Assembly: GCF_024346455.1 (NCBI RefSeq)
Contig: NZ_JAGQCY010000006.1
Span: forward strand, 124,001 to 188,000
Direction: 5' to 3'
Length of the DNA stretch: 64,000 nucleotides
Source: Cyanobium sp. Aljojuca 7A6
GTDB lineage: Bacteria > Cyanobacteriota > Cyanobacteriia > PCC-6307 > Cyanobiaceae
The notes beneath the pieces were generated by a model. That model was not told where the DNA came from. It saw only the letters and a list, made by a program, of their open reading frames with translations, and ran no database searches. A program made the translations under genes and the position numbers. Position 1 is the first letter of the stretch. The number at the start of each line of letters is the position of its first letter. Below are positions 1,475 through 52,587 of this stretch, in pieces.

Positions 1475-2068
1475 TCAGCCGTGGCTGCGGGGGCCGGCCT
1501 GGGGGCTGGCGCTCTCGGCCGCGGCGGTGGTGGCGGTGTCGCTGTCGGGCAGGGCACTCACGGCCCCCACGCCCGCCAGCTGGGGCAGGGGGGTGCCATC
1601 AACCAGGGCCGTGCTGAGGGCGTCGAGTTCGGCGCCGCTGCGGGCCCCGATCGAGCGGCCCACGGAGGTGCCGGCGGCGTCGAAGAACTCCAGCTGGGGG
1701 ATGCCGTTGACGTCGTAGCGCTCCAGTTGCGGTTGCCAGCGGGGGTTGTCGACGTTGAGCAGCACCACATCCATCCGGCCGCGCTGCTGGCGCTCGATCC
1801 GCTCCATCGCCGGTGCCATCGCGCGGCAGGCCTCACACCAGTCGGCGTAGAACTCCACCACCGTGGGCTTGCCATCGGCCAGGGCGACGGTGAGCTCGGG
1901 CGACTGGCGGGCCAGCCGTTCCAGGGGGGCTTCCGGATGCAGGCCGCCCCGCAGCCACACCATCAGCACCACCAGCACGGCCGCCACGGCCGCCAGAACC
2001 ATGCGCTCGGTGCGGCCGAGGCTGGAGGGGGGGAAACTGCCCGACGGGGCCATGGACACCAGTGACAC
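1475..2068 (-). CDS. Membrane-anchored thioredoxin-like protein (TxlA/HCF164 type)
   Basis: A 197-residue protein with one N-terminal membrane anchor (about residues 23-39, MVLAAVAAVLVVLMVW) followed by a thioredoxin fold. The redox motif is WCEAC (Cys78 and Cys81) and the cis-proline loop reads NGIPQLEFF. In cyanobacteria and plastids, proteins of this type (TxlA, HCF164) face the lumen or periplasm and reduce apocytochromes during cytochrome c and b6f assembly. That role is inferred from the architecture. An alternative start is Met6 (2053). The C-terminal 40 residues are Ala/Ser-rich and probably disordered. The gene heads a run into thyX and diverges from a ferredoxin gene across 101 bases. 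Confidence 0.82.
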   Translation of the reverse strand: MSLVSMAPSGSFPPSSLGRTERMVLAAVAAVLVVLMVWLRGGLHPEAPLERLARQSPELTVALADGKPTVVEFYADWCEACRAMAPAMERIERQQRGRMDVVLLNVDNPRWQPQLERYDVNGIPQLEFFDAAGTSVGRSIGARSGAELDALSTALVDGTPLPQLAGVGAVSALPDSDTATTAAAESASPQAGPRSHG

Positions 2069-2169
2069 GGAATGGCGCCCACTCTGGCAGCGCTGTCCCG
2101 TCGGCAGGGCCAGAACAAGGGGCTGGCTCGGGACATCGTTGCTAGCGTCAGCGTTCCCGGGCAGGAGCG

Positions 2170-2580
2170 GTGAAACGGCGCCTCACTCTCCATTTCCCCT
2201 CGGAGGCGGTGCACCAGCCGATCACCTACCGCCTCGCCGTCGACTTCGACATCGCCGCCAAGATCCTGCGGGCCCAGATCGCCCCCAACCAGAGCGGCAC
2301 CATGGTGGTGGAGCTCTCGGGGGACATCGACGAGCTCGATGCCGCCGAAGACTGGTTGGAGGGCCAGGGGCTGGGGCTCAATCGCGCTCCTGGGGAAATC
2401 CGTATCGATCCGGTGCTCTGCGTCGACTGCGGCATCTGCTCCAGCGTCTGCCCCAGCGGCGCCCTCCACTACACCCCGGCCACCCAGCGACTGCAGTTCG
2501 AAGCCTCCCGTTGCCTGGTGTGTGAGCAGTGCATCCCCAGCTGCCCGCTGGAGGCGATCACCCTGGTGCTGGAGCCATGA
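2170..2580 (+). CDS. NIL-domain two-[4Fe-4S] ferredoxin
   Basis: A 136-residue electron carrier. The N-terminal half (about residues 1-75) is a NIL domain, a ferredoxin-like fold first described at the end of methionine ABC ATPases. The C-terminal half carries two classical [4Fe-4S] motifs, CVDCGICSSVCP and CLVCEQCIPSCP. The start is GTG at 2170, preceded by the ribosome binding sequence GCAGGAG. Proteins of this layout are conserved in cyanobacteria and have been linked to sulfur or homocysteine metabolism in other bacteria; nothing here fixes the partner. The stop overlaps the start of the next gene as ATGA, so the two are probably co-translated. Confidence 0.9.
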   Translation: MKRRLTLHFPSEAVHQPITYRLAVDFDIAAKILRAQIAPNQSGTMVVELSGDIDELDAAEDWLEGQGLGLNRAPGEIRIDPVLCVDCGICSSVCPSGALHYTPATQRLQFEASRCLVCEQCIPSCPLEAITLVLEP

Positions 2581-45231: not shown

Positions 45232-46230
45232 TCACGACAGTGCCCCGAAACCGGTGAGGGGCTCCTCAGCGCGCCAGACCTCCTCCTGCAGACCTTCCTC
45301 CTCCAGCACCAACCGGGGTTCTTGCGTGAACGTGCCCACCCGCTCCAACTGCAGGCCGCCGCAGCTGGCGACCCGCTGCGCCAGCCGGCCCTCCTGATCG
45401 GGCCGGGCGGCCAGCAGGAAGCCGAAGCTGGGGAAGCCGGTGAGCCAGGGCTCCATGGCCACACCGGCGGGGGGATGGATCGCGGCCAGATCGAGGCGCA
45501 GACCGCAGCCGGCCGCCTCGCAGAACATGGCGGCGGTGCCCACCAGGCCGCCCATGCTGATGTCCTTGGCGGCATGGACACTGGCGTCGGCCGCCAGAGC
45601 CGCCATCAGGGCCAGCTGGCGCCGCAGCCGGGCGGGGTCGGCGCCGGTGGCCGCATCCCAGCAGAGGGAGTCGCCGCGGAAGCCGCCGTTGGGGTCAATC
45701 AGCAGATGGCAGTGGTCGCCGGCTCTGGCGGCGCGGGCCGAGAGCACCGGGCCGGCGGCCGTGCCCAGCACCGCCACCGCCAGGGCGTCGTAGGGGCTGT
45801 GCAGGTTGGTGTGGCCACCCACCATCGGCACCCCGAACACCTCCGAGGCCCGGCGCAGGCCCGCCAGCACCTGTTCCGCCTGGGTGGCACTGCGGCACCA
45901 GAGGCTGTTCACCACTGCGATCGGGGTGCCGCCCATGGCCGCGATGTCGCTGAGGTTCACAAGCACCCCGCACCAGCCGGCGAACCAGGGGTCGGCAGCC
46001 ACCAGGGCCGGGTCCAGGCCCTCACTGGCCAGCAGCAGCGGCGTGGCCACCGGCGGCAGCAGGGCGGCATCGTCGCCGAGGGCCGCGGCGGGGCCCAGCT
46101 CGGGAAAGGGCTGGTGGGGGAAGGTGGCCGCCGGGGACTGGATGTCGGTCTTGCCGGTGAGGCCGCTGAGCCGGCGCAGCCTGGCGGCCAGGGCCGCCAG
46201 GGGCGGATCCGGCGCCTCCGGGCGGCTCAC
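45232..46230 (-). CDS. Nit1C cluster AIR synthase-like protein (sll0787 family)
   Basis: A 332-residue protein of the PurM/AIR synthase/SelD fold: ALGDDAALLP near the N-terminus, VNLSDIAAMGGTPIAVVNSL with the nucleotide- and metal-binding Asp, MVGGHTNLHSPYDALAVAVL, and DISMGGLVGTAAMFCEAAGC. Such enzymes use ATP to activate a carbonyl or amide. The sll0787-type group occurs only in nitrilase clusters, and its substrate is not known. Its start overlaps the stop of the GNAT gene by four bases. Confidence 0.88.
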   Translation of the reverse strand: MSRPEAPDPPLAALAARLRRLSGLTGKTDIQSPAATFPHQPFPELGPAAALGDDAALLPPVATPLLLASEGLDPALVAADPWFAGWCGVLVNLSDIAAMGGTPIAVVNSLWCRSATQAEQVLAGLRRASEVFGVPMVGGHTNLHSPYDALAVAVLGTAAGPVLSARAARAGDHCHLLIDPNGGFRGDSLCWDAATGADPARLRRQLALMAALAADASVHAAKDISMGGLVGTAAMFCEAAGCGLRLDLAAIHPPAGVAMEPWLTGFPSFGFLLAARPDQEGRLAQRVASCGGLQLERVGTFTQEPRLVLEEEGLQEEVWRAEEPLTGFGALS

Positions 46231-46868
46231 GCCACGGCCCGGGGCACCGGCTGGGGCCGCCGTTCCTGGCCGGGCTGGTAGTAGGTGAGGTCGGCCTCCA
46301 TCAGGTGGTGGGGCAGACCGCGGATCTCCAGCGTCTTGATCGAGGTCCAGTGCAGGCGCTGGAAGAAGCGCACGTTCTGGAGCTGCACCGTGGCCAGGAA
46401 GCGATCGCAGCCCCAGCCGTTGGCGGTGGTGACCGCCTTCCAGATCAGGCCCTTGCCGATCTGGTTGTGGCGGCGGTGGTCGTGGTGCACCCCCAGCCGG
46501 CCGCCGTACCAGAGGCGGGGGCGCTCCTCCAGGATCCGCACCACCCCCACCACGCCGCTGCCGCTGCTGGCGCTGTGGTCGAGGGCGGCGATGGGATAGG
46601 CGTGGCCATCCTTCTCATCCCGGTCGGTGGCCTCGAACAGGTGCTGCTCCTGGCAGAAGATGGCGCTGCGCAGCTGCCAGTAGCCCTCCTCCAGGGGCGT
46701 GCCGCGCCGCAGCAGGTGGAAGGAGAAGCGCTGGGAGCTGGCCGTGGGTGAGAGGCGGAAGTCCTCGGCCTCGATGGCCACCCCCCGCCGCACCGAGGGG
46801 GCGAAGGCGGCGGCGCCGCTGCTGGCGCTGCGGCCGATGTCGTGGCTGGAGGGGTCGATGAAGAACAT
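46227..46868 (-). CDS. Nit1C cluster GNAT acetyltransferase (sll0786/MSMEG_0567 family)
   Basis: A 213-residue Gcn5-type acetyltransferase. A cluster-typical N-terminal region (about 1-55) precedes GYWQLRSAIFCQEQHLFEAT, VVGVVRILEERPRLWYGGRL, HNQIGKGLIWKAVTTANGWG (acetyl-CoA loop) and LQNVRFFQRLHW. The ATG at 46868 is chosen because the MFFIDPSS start matches family length; the frame is open further upstream inside the radical SAM gene. The acetylated substrate is unknown. Part of a tightly packed minus-strand operon. Confidence 0.87.
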   Translation of the reverse strand: MFFIDPSSHDIGRSASSGAAAFAPSVRRGVAIEAEDFRLSPTASSQRFSFHLLRRGTPLEEGYWQLRSAIFCQEQHLFEATDRDEKDGHAYPIAALDHSASSGSGVVGVVRILEERPRLWYGGRLGVHHDHRRHNQIGKGLIWKAVTTANGWGCDRFLATVQLQNVRFFQRLHWTSIKTLEIRGLPHHLMEADLTYYQPGQERRPQPVPRAVA

Positions 46869-46876
46869 GGCCGCGC

Positions 46877-48001
46877 TCAGGGGGTGGCTTCGAACAGGGA
46901 CAGGGCCGAGCAGGCGCCGCACTTGGCGCAGCCGGCCGCCATGGCCTCGGACCTGAGGTCGGAGGCCCGCAACCGGTCGCCCACCGCCGTGTACACCGCC
47001 ACCATGAAGTCGGTGGAGGGGGCGGGATGGGCCTCCAGGGGGGTGCCGGCGATCGGCACGAAGGGCACCACGAACGGGTAGACGCCCAGGGCGATCAGCC
47101 GCTCGCTCACCGCCACGATCGAGGCGGCGCTGTCCCCCAGACCGGCCAGCAGGTAGGTGGACACCTGGCCGCGGCCGAACACCGCCACCGCTTCGGCGAA
47201 GGCCTCCATGTAGCGCTCCAGCCCCAGCTCCGACTTGCCCGGCAGGATCCGCCGCCGCACCTCCTCCTCCACCACCTCCAGGTGCATGCCGAGGCTGTCC
47301 ACGCCGGCCGACCTCATGCGGCGGTACCAGGCCGGGTCGTCCGGGGGCTCGCACTGGGCCTGGATCGGCAGGTCGACCCGGGCCTTGACGGCGGCGGCGG
47401 TCTCGGCCATCAGCCGGGCGCCCCGGTCATCGCTGTTGGGGGTGCCGGTGGTGAGCACCAGCTGGCGCACACCATCAAGCCGCACCGCCGCCTCGGCCAC
47501 CTCCGCCACCTGCTCCGGCGTCTTTCGCACGAGGGTGCGGCCATCCTCCAGCGACTGCTCGATGGCGCAGAACTGGCACGACTGGGTGCGGTCGCGAAAG
47601 CGGATGCAGGTCTGCAGGAGCGTGGTGGCCAGCACGTCCCGGCCGTGCAGCAGGGCGATCGAGCGGTAGGGGATGCCTTCGGCGGTGGCCAGGCCGTAGA
47701 AGCGCGGCTCGGGTGGGGTCTGCACGGCCAGGGGCCCGGCGGCGTCGTCAGCGAGGGCGGTGGTGCCGCTCACCTGCAGGCCGCCTTCGGCGCTGGTGTC
47801 CAGCCGGTAGGGCGAGCTGCCGGCCAGGGCGTTGTAGACGGGCACCATCACCGTGGTGCCCTCGATGCTGAGGGCGCGGTGATCCGAGGGGCCGGCGCCG
47901 CCCCGGCGGCCGGGGTTGCCGGGCACCGCCGGGTCGACCACCCCGTGCACCTGCAGTTCGGTGAGCTTGCGGCCCAGGGCGCGGCGATCGTGCTCAGCCA
48001 T
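46877..48001 (-). CDS. Nit1C cluster radical SAM protein (MSMEG_0568 family)
   Basis: A 374-residue radical S-adenosylmethionine enzyme of the biotin-synthase-like branch. The cluster-binding Cys residues appear as [19 protein letters not shown], that is C-x9-C-x2-C instead of the textbook CX3CX2C. Other blocks are [20 protein letters not shown] and [21 protein letters not shown] Cys pair near the C-terminus ([13 protein letters not shown]) may hold a second cluster. Reaction unknown. It overlaps the nitrilase gene by eight bases. Confidence 0.9.
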
Positions 48002-48986
48002 GGTGCAGCTCCTCCAGCGCCGGCAGGCCCGGGGGCACCTCGCCGCCAGCCGGCTCGGGGGGGCGTTCGTGCAGCTGGAGAGCGGGGCTGCGGTCGATCA
48101 GCAGTCCCAGCAGGTCCGGGCGGCTGTAGTGGCCGACGCTGTCCATCATGCGTTTGCGTTTGGTGATCAGGGCCAGGTCGAGTTCGGCGATGGCCAGCCC
48201 CTCGCCATCGGGCAGCGGCCCGGCCAGATAACGGCCCTCCGGGCTGATCACCGCCGTGTGGCAGCCCCCCTGGCAGGCCTTCTGCAGCACCGGGTCGGGC
48301 GTGATCCTCTCGATGTCCTCCGGCTCCAGCCAGGCGGTGGAGGAGATCACGAAGCAGCCGGCCTCGAGGGCGTGGTGGCGCAAGGTCACGGCGGTCTGCT
48401 CGGCGAAGATCGGTCCCACGAGCGAGCCGGGGAACTGGGCGCAGTGGATCTCCTCGCCCTGGGCCATCAGGCTGAAGCGGGCCAGGGGGTTGTAGTGCTC
48501 CCAGCAGGCCAGGGCGCCGATGCGCCCGAGGGCGGTGGGCACCACCTGCAGGCCGGCCCCATCGCCCTGGCCCCACACCATCCGCTCGTGATAGGTGGGC
48601 GTGAGCTTGCGGCGCTTCAGCACCAGCTCCCCGGCCGCATCGATCAGCAGCTGGGCGTTGTAGAGGCTGCCCCCATCGCGCTCGTTGATGCCCAGCAGCA
48701 CGTGCAGGCCGAGCTGGCGGGCGGCGGCGGCGATGCGGCCCAGGGCCGGGCCGGGCACCGTCACCGCCTGCTCGTAGAGCTTCAGGTGCGACTTCCCCAT
48801 CAGCACCGGCGGCTCCACGAAGGAGAAGTAGGGGTAGTAGGGCAGGACCGTTTCGGGGAAGACGATCAGCTGCACCCCGGCCGCGGCGGCCTCCTCCATG
48901 GCGGCGACCACCCGCGCCACCGATCCCTCCAGGCTGTAGAGCACCGGACGGATCTGGGCGGCGGCGACGGTGATCGTGGCGGGCAT
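47994..48986 (-). CDS. nitC: Nitrilase of the Nit1C cluster (Nit6803-like)
   Basis: A 330-residue nitrilase. The catalytic triad is visible: Glu in [14 protein letters not shown], Lys in [17 protein letters not shown], and the nucleophile Cys in [15 protein letters not shown]. Nit6803 from Synechocystis, the nearest characterised relative by pattern, hydrolyses a range of nitriles. In cyanide-using bacteria the equivalent gene (nitC) of the Nit1C cluster is required for growth on cyanide. It probably releases ammonia from cyanide or small nitriles in the cytoplasm. The next gene upstream ends directly before its start. Confidence 0.93.
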
Positions 48987-49469
48987 TCAGAGCGTCCAGG
49001 TGTCGAGGATGAAGGCCCCCTCCTTGCGGTGCAGCAGCACGATGTCGAGCACATCAAGGGGATTGACCGGGATGATCCCGGGGATCAGGGCGCCTTCGCC
49101 GTGGCCGTAGAGGGCCTGCAGGGCGAAGCGGCAGGCATAGACCTTGCCGCCCTGGCCGATGAACTTCTCGATGCGGGCGCCGAAGTTGAGGTGGCCGTCG
49201 AAGGCGGCGTCACCGAGCTTGGGGAAGCCCCGCTGCAGCCCCAGGGTCACGCCGGGTCCGTAGAGAAGGATTGAGGTCTCGAAGCCCTTGTTGACCAGGC
49301 GGCTGGCCTGCAGCAGGTTCACCAGGCCGATGGAGCCTTCGAAGGCCACGGTGTGGAAGGTGACCAGGGCCTTCTCGCCCGGCTCGGCTTTGACGTCGGG
49401 GAAGACCTTTTCCTCGTAGTCGACGAGGAAATCGCCCGTCTGGTTGGCGGGACGGCTGACCTGGGGCAT
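48987..49469 (-). CDS. Nit1C cluster DsrE-like protein (sll0783/MSMEG_0572 family)
   Basis: A 160-residue soluble protein, first gene of the minus-strand operon. Blocks are [38 protein letters not shown] and [20 protein letters not shown], which contains a conserved Cys; the fold resembles DsrE/DsrF sulfur-relay proteins. Sll0783 of Synechocystis is induced by nitrogen starvation and affects PHB accumulation (from memory of published work). The ATG at 49469 is chosen by family length. No catalytic activity is established. Confidence 0.85.
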
Positions 49470-49638
49470 GGGGAAGTGCGGTCGGTGGAATCGGCAGGTG
49501 GACCGTGCCACGGATGAAGTTTTGTTCTGTGTCGCCGATGCCACCGAATCCCGGCACCGGGCAATCCGTGGCGGTCGTTACAGGGCGGATCCCGCCGCGC
49601 GGCCAGCATCAACACCCGACAACGACCAGAGGGGCTCG

Positions 49639-50937
49639 GTGGCAAGCGGTTCGCAGGTGCTGCAGCGCCATCCGGTGGTGGTGGTAGGGGGCGGGCAGGC
49701 CGGCCTGTCGGTGGCCCACTGCCTGCAGAAGCGGGGGCTGCGGCCCCTGGTGCTGGAGCGCCACCGCATCGGCCATGCCTGGGCGCGCCAGCGCTGGGAC
49801 TCCTTCTGCCTGGTCACCCCCAACTGGCAGTGCCGCCTGCCCGATTTCCCCTATGACGGCGACGACCCGGACGGCTTCATGGGCCGCGAGGAGATCGTCC
49901 GTTACGTGCAGCGCTTCGCCGACCACATCCAGGTGCCCGTGCGCGAAGGGGTGGCGGTGCGGCGCCTGCAGGCCAGCGGTTCGGGGTTCCGCCTCAGCAC
50001 CGACGACGGCGAGATCGAGGCGGATCAGGTGGTGCTGGCCACCGGCGGTTACCACCGCCCGAAGCGCCATCCCCTCGCCGCCAGGCTGCCCGAGCGGATC
50101 CTGCAGATCGATGCCCGCGACTACACCAGCCCCGCGTCCCTGCCCGCTGGCCCGGTGCTGGTGGTGGGCAGTGGCCAGTCGGGCTGCCAGATCGCCGAAG
50201 ACCTGTTCCTGGCCGGCCGCCGGGTGCACCTGAGCGTCGGCAGCGCCCCCCGCTCCCCGCGCCGCTACCGAGGCCGCGACGTGGTCGACTGGCTCGATCG
50301 CATGGGCTACTACGCCATGCCGATCGACCAGCACGCCGATCCGAAGGCGGTGCGGGGCAAGACCAACCACTACCTCACCGGCCGCGACGGTGGCCGCGAG
50401 ATCGACCTGCGCCGCCGCGCCCTCGAGGGGATGGTGCTGCACGGCCGGCTGGCCGACCTCGGCCACGACCGCATCAGCTTCGCCGGCGACCTGGCCGCGA
50501 ACCTCGACGGGGCCGACGCCGTCTACAGCCGCATCTGCCGCAGCATCGACGCCCACATCGCCGCCCAGGGCCTCAGCGCCCCCGAGGAGCCCGCCTACGT
50601 CTCCTGCTGGACGCCGCCCCCCGGTCCGTCCGCGCCCCTCGATCTGGCCGCTGAGCCCCTGGCGGCGGTGATCTGGTGCACGGGGTACCACCCGGACTTC
50701 ACCTGGGTGGAGGTGCCGGTCTTCGATGGCGCCGGCCATCCGGCCCACGAGCGGGGCCTCACCCAGGTGCCGGGCCTCTACGTCCTTGGCCTGCCCTGGC
50801 TGCACACCTGGGGTTCGGCCCGCTTCTGCGGGGTGGCCGAGGATGCCGAGTACCTGGCGGAGGCGATCCGGCTGCGCGCCTCCCGCCGGGTCGCCAGCCA
50901 GGAGCGGCTGGAGTGCACTGCCCTGCTGGGCACCTGA
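49639..50937 (+). CDS. Nit1C cluster flavoprotein monooxygenase-like oxidoreductase (MSMEG_0569 family)
   Basis: A 432-residue FAD- and NAD(P)H-binding protein starting at GTG 49639; the frame is open upstream. It has the FAD Rossmann motif VVVVGGGQAGLSVAH, the NAD(P)H motif VLVVGSGQSGCQIAEDL, and the FAD closing segment GLYVLGLPWLHTWGSAR. This is the flavin monooxygenase/thioredoxin reductase-like group found at the end of nitrilase clusters (nitH). It is transcribed divergently from the rest of the cluster across 169 bases. Substrate unknown. Confidence 0.87.
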   Translation: MASGSQVLQRHPVVVVGGGQAGLSVAHCLQKRGLRPLVLERHRIGHAWARQRWDSFCLVTPNWQCRLPDFPYDGDDPDGFMGREEIVRYVQRFADHIQVPVREGVAVRRLQASGSGFRLSTDDGEIEADQVVLATGGYHRPKRHPLAARLPERILQIDARDYTSPASLPAGPVLVVGSGQSGCQIAEDLFLAGRRVHLSVGSAPRSPRRYRGRDVVDWLDRMGYYAMPIDQHADPKAVRGKTNHYLTGRDGGREIDLRRRALEGMVLHGRLADLGHDRISFAGDLAANLDGADAVYSRICRSIDAHIAAQGLSAPEEPAYVSCWTPPPGPSAPLDLAAEPLAAVIWCTGYHPDFTWVEVPVFDGAGHPAHERGLTQVPGLYVLGLPWLHTWGSARFCGVAEDAEYLAEAIRLRASRRVASQERLECTALLGT

Positions 50938-50940
50938 GCC

Positions 50941-51564
50941 TCAGGCCACCAGGGCCGACCAGGTGAAGGCCAGGCCGAGGCCCATCAGCAGGCCGGCGGT
51001 GAGGCTCACCGCCGCGCTGGAAGCGTTCTGGCGCCAGCGCCGCACCGCCGTCAGGGCCACCAGAAGCAGCAGCGACTGGCTGACCAGCAGACCCGCCAGG
51101 TAGAAGCCGATCGGGGCCGGCTCCCAGCCGATCACGGCCCCGCTGAGGGCGTAGCCGTGCAGCAGGAAGGTGGGCACCAGAACGGCCGGGGGCAGGCGGC
51201 GCGCCAGAACCAGGCCGGTGAGCGCCACCGACAGGGCCACCAGCGGCTCGATCCAGGGGAAGCCCGGCAGGGCCAGCCCGAGGCCATTGCCCACCAGCCC
51301 GCAACCCAGCAGGGCCAGCACCCAGCGGAAGGGATGGACGATGCCCACCAGGCCGATCGCCAGCAGGAACAGCAGGTGGTCGGGGCCGAGGATCGGGTGG
51401 GCCAGGCCGCTGAGCAGCCCGGTGAGAGGTCCGGGCTTGAGCCCGGTCAGATCCATCACGTGGTGCGCCGAAGCCGGGGCGGCCAGCAGCAGGGGCAGGG
51501 CGCAGACAACGGCGAGGGCGATCGGCAGGAGGCCGCGCCGCTCAGCCAGAGAAGGCAGTGTCAT
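50941..51564 (-). CDS. HupE/UreJ-family metal transporter, copy 1 (riboswitch-controlled)
   Basis: A 207-residue membrane protein with a signal peptide (about 1-33, ending PASAHH) and six helices. The family metal-binding motif is LAHPILGPDHLLFLLAIGL, with His and Asp-His. HupE/UreJ proteins carry Ni2+ or Co2+. Because a cobalamin riboswitch lies in its leader (51608-51742, minus strand), cobalt for vitamin B12 is the likelier substrate. It is divergent from a second copy with its own riboswitch. Confidence 0.88.
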   Translation of the reverse strand: MTLPSLAERRGLLPIALAVVCALPLLLAAPASAHHVMDLTGLKPGPLTGLLSGLAHPILGPDHLLFLLAIGLVGIVHPFRWVLALLGCGLVGNGLGLALPGFPWIEPLVALSVALTGLVLARRLPPAVLVPTFLLHGYALSGAVIGWEPAPIGFYLAGLLVSQSLLLLVALTAVRRWRQNASSAAVSLTAGLLMGLGLAFTWSALVA

Positions 51565-51607
51565 GAAAAGTCTCCGGTCCTCGCCGGCGGGAAATGGGTC
51601 GAGTGGG

Positions 51608-51742
51608 GGTGAGCGTTCTGACTGAGGACGCCGGGCCGGGAAGCCAGGTTTCCATCACAGCTGCGGGACAGCGGCGGACTCGGGAAACCCCTCACCGCCT
51701 TTCCTCCTTGCGTCCTCCCCGTGAAGGGAAGGAACCCCTGGG
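51608..51742 (-). ncRNA. Cobalamin riboswitch, minus strand
   Basis: Leader of HupE/UreJ copy 1. On the minus strand I see GGTTCC (51736-51731), GAGGAAAGGCGGTGAGG, the core B12 element GCTGTCCCGCAGCTGTGATGG (51672-51652) in two overlapping parts, and the 3' end TCAGTCAGAACGC (51625-51613). The spacing follows the cobalamin riboswitch consensus. Bound B12 would reduce expression of the transporter, whose start is 44 bases downstream. Confidence 0.82.
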
Positions 51743-51814
51743 GGCCATCCTCCCCCCTTCCCGGTCAGAAGCTGCGGTCATCGGGCGGCAACGTCACCGG
51801 CTGCGGTCACAATG
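51743..51814. promoter_or_regulatory. Divergent promoter region between the two riboswitches
   Basis: About 70 bases that must hold both promoters. CTGCGGTCA is repeated at 51772-51780 and 51801-51809. CACAAT at 51807-51812 could be the plus-strand -10 element. No gene is encoded in 51565-51987; the whole stretch is riboswitch leaders and this spacer. Confidence 0.45.
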
Positions 51815-51948
51815 GGCAGACGGTTCCCGGGGTTCACCTCCGGGAGGAAACGAGGAAAGTCCGGTGCACGGCTGGGTTCGCCCTGTTGTCATTCCGGCGC
51901 TGTCCCGCAGCTGTGATGGGGTCACCCTCAGCCAGAACGCTCGCCGTG
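51815..51948 (+). ncRNA. Cobalamin riboswitch, plus strand
   Basis: Leader of HupE/UreJ copy 2. It shows GGTTCC (51822-51827), GAGGAAAGTCCGGTG (51852-51866), the B12 element GCTGTCCCGCAGCTGTGATGG (51899-51919, identical over 21 bases to the minus-strand copy, which I cite as one element) and CAGCCAGAACGCTC (51928-51942). GAGGAAAGTCC alone also occurs in RNase P RNA, but the rest of that RNA is absent. The gene starts 40 bases downstream. Confidence 0.82.
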
Positions 51949-51987
51949 AACCGTTCCTTCCATCCCCGGCGCGGACCGGGACCCTCG

Positions 51988-52587
51988 ATGACCAACTTTT
52001 CCGGCCTCCGCTCCTGGACCCTTCTGGGGGGTGCGGCCGCCCTCGGCTTCGTGCTGATCGGCCAGCCGGCCCAGGCCCATGGCCTGGCCCACGGCGGCCT
52101 CGGCTATGGCTTCCTCCACCCCATCACCGGCATCGATCACCTGCTGCTGCTGGTCGGCGTCGGCGCGGCTGCGTCCTATGTGTCCGCCGAGCTGCTGCTC
52201 TGGGGCCTGGCCGGTGCGGTGCTGGGGGGCCTGGTCGGGGCCACGGGCTTCGCCCTGCCCTTCGCTGAGGTGCTGGCCGCCCTGGCGATCTCGGCGGTGG
52301 CGCTGCTGATCCTGCGCTCCCACCGTGATGGCCGCAGCCCCGGGCTGGCCTTCGCCGGCACCCTGGTGGCCGGTGCGGTCGCCCTGCATGCCCTGCTGCA
52401 CGGCGGCGAGGCCCCCGTCGATGGCTCAGCCCTGGGCTGGTGGGCCGGCGCCCTGGCGGCCTCGCTGCTGGTGAGTGGTGGTTCGTTCCTGGCGATGCGC
52501 CGTCTGCCCCTGGTCTGGACTGCCCGCCTCGCCCTGTTGCTGGCGGTGCTCGGCGGCGCCCTGGCCCTGGCTCCGCTGGCGGCCTAA
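51988..52587 (+). CDS. HupE/UreJ-family metal transporter, copy 2 (riboswitch-controlled)
   Basis: A 199-residue membrane protein: signal peptide (about residues 1-26, ending AQAHG), then six helices. The metal motif is FLHPITGIDHLLLLVGVG (HP...G.DH). A second His-rich site, ALHALLHGGEAP, lies in the later part. It diverges from copy 1 and has its own cobalamin riboswitch, so it is predicted to import cobalt under B12 shortage. Copies 1 and 2 are only moderately similar, so they are not a recent duplication. It overlaps the end of the convergent kinase gene. Confidence 0.88.
   Translation: MTNFSGLRSWTLLGGAAALGFVLIGQPAQAHGLAHGGLGYGFLHPITGIDHLLLLVGVGAAASYVSAELLLWGLAGAVLGGLVGATGFALPFAEVLAALAISAVALLILRSHRDGRSPGLAFAGTLVAGAVALHALLHGGEAPVDGSALGWWAGALAASLLVSGGSFLAMRRLPLVWTARLALLLAVLGGALALAPLAA

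Follow-up and report, generated by a model that had tools for sequence, protein, structure and literature searches.

Two divergent predicted cobalamin riboswitches share a conserved spacer between head-to-head hupE genes

Two genes of the HupE/UreJ family lie head to head in the window, that is, the whole 64-kb stretch of DNA analysed here. The gene on the minus strand (50941..51564, ATG at 51564) encodes a protein of 207 aa and the gene on the plus strand (51988..52587, ATG at 51988) a protein of 199 aa; both match PF04955 (82.9 and 50.3 bits, respectively, with a cut-off of 23 bits for HupE_UreJ). The HupE signature HPXXGXDH (PMC7689651) is present in both, as HPILGPDH on the minus strand and HPITGIDH on the plus strand, and the two proteins share 30% identity over 139 aa. 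For the DNA between the genes, a first-pass annotation had proposed a cobalamin riboswitch on each strand, to be checked by a covariance-model search of both strands. When the whole window was searched against Rfam, exactly two matches to RF00174 were obtained and no other Rfam family was matched. One lies on the plus strand (51804..51962, 45.6 bits, E 3e-8) and the other on the minus strand (51591..51754, 43.7 bits, E 1e-7). Both are full length (model positions 1–189) and score higher than the gathering threshold of 31.5 bits, and each is directly upstream of one of the divergent genes, so that the proposal, which one match or none would have contradicted, is confirmed.

Each leader also contains the sequence UCCCG at the expected L5 kissing loop (51903..51907 on the plus strand and 51664..51668 on the minus strand), identical to the L5 consensus of cobalamin riboswitches (PMC10653944). 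Energy folding of the leaders recovered neither the aptamers nor the expression platform described below (z 0.07 and 0.61, no better than shuffles), and the evidence for the structure therefore comes from the covariance model and from comparison of leaders. We classify both leaders as cobalamin riboswitches by their RF00174 scores and by the match between L5 and a downstream loop, L13; binding of a corrinoid is predicted.

The L13 loop caps a P13 hairpin located between the aptamer and the start codon on each side: CCCGG-CGCGGA-CCGGG on the plus strand (51965..51980), and CCGG-CGAGGA-CCGG on the minus strand (51574..51587). P13 ends 7 nt before the ATG on the plus strand and 9 nt before it on the minus strand. 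Candidate Shine-Dalgarno sequences, both of them short matches, coincide with the 3' arms: GGGA (51978..51981, plus strand) lies mostly within the arm shortly before the ATG at 51988, and GGAG (51572..51575, minus strand) lies half within it before the ATG at 51564. The loop has the form CG-N-GGA, that is, CGGGA with one extra base, and without N it is the exact complement of L5 UCCCG. Comparison of 81 hupE leaders, which are related to each other so that the following counts do not represent independent events, showed that 79 carry the motif CG-N-GGAC a short distance ahead of the start codon, with N being C in 55, A in 22 and T in 2; in 77 of these 79, all four P13 pairs adjoining the loop are formed, including the compensatory forms CTGG/CCAG and TCGG/CCGA. 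A variable base amid five fixed ones fits an L5–L13 kissing interaction in which N would be bulged out. Covariation within the kissing loop was not seen among these leaders, as L5 hardly varies. No terminator-like site was found by a scan of the leaders, and P13 overlaps the ribosome-binding region, as in a translational expression platform, for which hiding of the ribosome-binding site is predicted. Since each leader has a complete aptamer and its own expression platform, the suggestion that each transporter has a separate riboswitch is upheld as well.

A third riboswitch is present in the same genome (G000:C1:127315-127478). The hupE gene that it controls (L046, G000:C1:125300-129500, positions 825-2809) is located downstream of another PF04955 gene, which is UreJ-like and scores far higher (182 bits). 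The P13 stem of this third leader looks weaker (CCGA/CCGG) than in its relatives.

With the whole spacer as query, full-length matches were found in 16 of the 42 genomes of the window's genus and in no other genus: when 400 genomes of the family were searched, those from other genera among the matches listed covered only part of the query, although fragmented assemblies could hide some pairs. The distance between the two aptamers was 49–53 nt in the 13 pair genomes in which it was measured. Named relatives with the minus-strand gene are Cyanobium sp. Cruz-8D1, Synechococcus sp. BO 8801, Aphanothece cf. minutissima CCALA 015 and Cyanobium sp. CACIAM 14. The locus is syntenic, in that almost all pair genomes have one and the same flavin oxidoreductase gene adjoining the minus-strand hupE. 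A Nit1C-type gene cluster is situated beside the pair (window positions 45232-50937), comprising a Nit6803-family nitrilase (TIGR04048), a radical SAM protein (TIGR04043), an MSMEG_0572/Sll0783 protein (TIGR04044), a GNAT protein (TIGR04045), an AIR-synthase-like protein (TIGR04049) and a flavin oxidoreductase (TIGR04046), and its nearest genes keep their place beside the pair in nearly all pair genomes tested.

The upstream regions of paired and unpaired loci were compared. A probable −10 box, CACAAT, lies at 51808..51813 on the plus strand, at the same position as in unpaired loci of the plus type; a possible −10 box on the minus strand, GAGGAT (51747..51752), is invariant in the 16 pair genomes and matches the consensus poorly. 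No sigma-70 promoter passed a scan of this DNA, both −10 boxes are weak and neither side has a −35 consensus. Because the putative −10 boxes are only 55 bp apart, the sites occupied by polymerase would overlap upstream. The DNA between them (51753..51807) is specific to the pair locus, and its centre (51765-51800) has a mean pairwise identity of 95% among the 16 genomes, compared with 76% at 187 four-fold sites of both hupE genes; none of 20000 resamplings of 36 four-fold sites was as conserved. A 20-mer from the spacer, GATGACCGCAGCTTCTGACC, matches 15 of the 16 pair loci with at most one mismatch and has no such match elsewhere in the 42 genomes of the genus. In addition, the plus strand carries a 17-nt direct repeat with a spacing of 29, consisting of GTCAGAAGCTGCGGTCA (51764..51780) and GTCACCGGCTGCGGTCA (51793..51809), and one of 1000 base shuffles gave a repeat as good.

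The conserved spacer may represent a pair of overlapping core promoters, an operator or a combination of the two; among the parts of the system, it is the only one for which known biology offers no explanation as yet. The degree of conservation, the 20-mer confined to the pair locus, the direct repeat and the lack of a −35 consensus all raise the possibility that a DNA-binding protein, such as a metal or nutrient sensor, binds the spacer and co-regulates both promoters in addition to the riboswitches. Two overlapping core promoters alone, however, would constrain this DNA, and the direct repeat decays in the most divergent pair genome and is missing from unpaired loci. We hold such a protein to be rather unlikely, and the same tentative standing applies to the idea, drawn from sequence comparison, that the spacer would be the operator through which it controls both importers transcriptionally, above the riboswitches. 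A 2021 review notes that a protein cobalt sensor acting on a cobalt importer had yet to be identified (PMC7689651).

Each of the two proteins is a member of a different HupE group; the two groups are deeply separated, and each also occurs singly with its own riboswitch. In the protein tree, the paired minus-strand genes form one clade, which is joined by an unpaired gene of another genome, G034 (support 100/99), and the leader of this unpaired gene is related to the paired minus-strand leaders in the leader tree (99/99). A single event within a Cyanobium clade apparently brought two old riboswitch–hupE units into the head-to-head arrangement; this is the simplest history, and pairing may also have been lost elsewhere. 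A different origin was suggested by our first leader tree, which put the paired minus-strand leaders with the plus type (100/97) while the minus-strand protein nevertheless grouped with its own type, as would be expected if the minus-strand gene had exchanged its riboswitch for that of the other hupE lineage at the time of pairing. This was not upheld when more sequences were included, as a grouping of all minus-type leaders together was not rejected (AU p 0.40), and the unpaired G034 relative carries the same leader subtype, which leaves the swap a doubtful alternative to the joining of two complete units. The unpaired relative is located at L118 (G034:C98:8000-13000, positions 1919-2521, minus strand), and its leader is absent from the RF00174 matches listed. 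Judging from translations only, the genes upstream of this relative seem to encode a metal-binding solute protein and an ABC ATPase.

Cyanobacteria use a variant of B12, pseudocobalamin. The genome that carries the pair encodes CobN (1618 bits) and MetH; searches of this genome found neither CbiM nor a class II ribonucleotide reductase (NrdJ_Z model). Cyanobacterial HupE proteins under B12 riboswitches have been assigned to cobalt, and a hupE mutant of Synechocystis was rescued by cobalt or methionine (PMC4284471, PMC7689651). By analogy with the Synechocystis protein and given the B12-type control, both HupE proteins are likely cobalt importers. Sequence alone does not decide between cobalt and nickel, and HupE/UreJ proteins encoded near hydrogenase or urease genes have been assigned to nickel (PMC2667541, PMC4284471), so import of nickel by both transporters, or of one metal by each, was also considered. 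However, there is little reason for B12 to exert feedback on a nickel importer, the published B12-regulated cyanobacterial proteins were assigned to cobalt and no hydrogenase or urease genes were seen among the neighbours examined; we regard a role in nickel import as quite improbable. For a cobalt importer, end-product feedback is the natural reading of B12 control.

The first-pass annotation had also pointed to a 21-base identity in inverted orientation between the two aptamers (51652-51672 and 51899-51919). The identity is present and slightly longer than claimed: the arms at 51652-51678, in the conserved core of the minus-strand aptamer, and 51893-51919, in that of the plus-strand aptamer, are 27 nt long, 96% complementary and separated by 214 nt, and the inverted match continues beyond them at 70% over 54 nt. 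Nearly every hupE riboswitch examined in this cyanobacterial family has the 21-mer, GCTGTCCCGCAGCTGTGATGG, which contains L5 (UCCCG), either unaltered or with a few differences. The unaltered form is present in many solitary, unpaired riboswitches of hupE genes, the third one of this genome among them. We conclude from this comparison that the inverted 21-mer is the L5 core conserved among hupE riboswitches of the family and nothing peculiar to the pair; constraint on this core across the family explains the inverted identity. Neither of the two possibilities that had been raised on the basis of the identity holds up. Pairing between the two leaders fails because an inverted DNA repeat that is read divergently gives identical and not complementary RNAs, so that within the identity only the 6-nt palindrome CAGCTG could pair between leaders; a large DNA cruciform is unlikely with arms of 27 nt and 214 nt between them, given that the identity is a family-wide core.

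Trees and identities of the leaders also bear on how the repeat arose. A single clade for the leaders of both sides, as expected from local inverted duplication of one element, was rejected (lnL 31 worse, AU p = 0.008), and leader identity is 79.6% within a genome versus 79.5% between genomes, giving no sign of gene conversion. An inverted duplication maintained by gene conversion, with the repeat itself functional as a cruciform or in leader pairing, would account for the length and complementarity of the repeat and for its continuation further out, and is nevertheless largely refuted and highly improbable in view of the tree, the equal identities, the same core in unpaired riboswitches and the identical transcripts.

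We consider it very probable that two independent corrinoid riboswitches repress translation of the divergent genes for HupE-type cobalt importers. Under this proposal, two promoters sharing the 55-bp spacer would fire outward, with each RNA starting at about its own P1 stem. With enough adenosyl-corrinoid, the aptamer would bind its ligand and L5 (UCCCG) would kiss L13 (CG-N-GGA), leaving N bulged out; the kissing loop would stabilise the P13 hairpin, hide the ribosome-binding region and so stop translation of the importer. At low corrinoid, P13 would open and both importers would be made, supplying cobalt for the cobaltochelatase CobN.

The proposed switch follows that of E. coli btuB and env8HyCbl, in which an L5–L13 kissing loop stabilises P13 and the ribosome-binding site is hidden, and the env8HyCbl kissing loop has been reported to contain a bulge (PMC10653944). 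It would differ from them in controlling the gene for a metal importer in an organism that produces corrinoids. The pair has in common with RF00174 riboswitches the full-length aptamer, the L5 sequence UCCCG, a kissing-capable L13 and a P13 at the ribosome-binding region; unlike typical members, the two are arranged divergently, back to back around one spacer, and L13 has one extra variable base, reminiscent of the bulged env8HyCbl loop. Gene family and type of control are shared with other B12-riboswitch-controlled cyanobacterial hupE genes, predicted to encode cobalt transporters, of which the Synechocystis homologue slr2135 has been tested. Unlike in those cases, two paralogous lineages stand head to head here and a third riboswitch-bearing copy is located elsewhere. 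The system is thus of a known kind and built from ordinary parts, with a modestly unusual layout. Titles and abstracts, from a literature collection with few subscription journals, yielded no published divergent pair of cobalamin riboswitches, and the arrangement may still have been reported.

The pair corrects a tempting misreading, in that inverted identity of divergent riboswitches means identical RNAs and not pairing RNAs. In addition, the arrangement of two B12 switches flanking a single spacer, conserved across 16 genomes, is a natural setting in which to ask if cobalt import in picocyanobacteria is subject to a further layer of control at the level of transcription.
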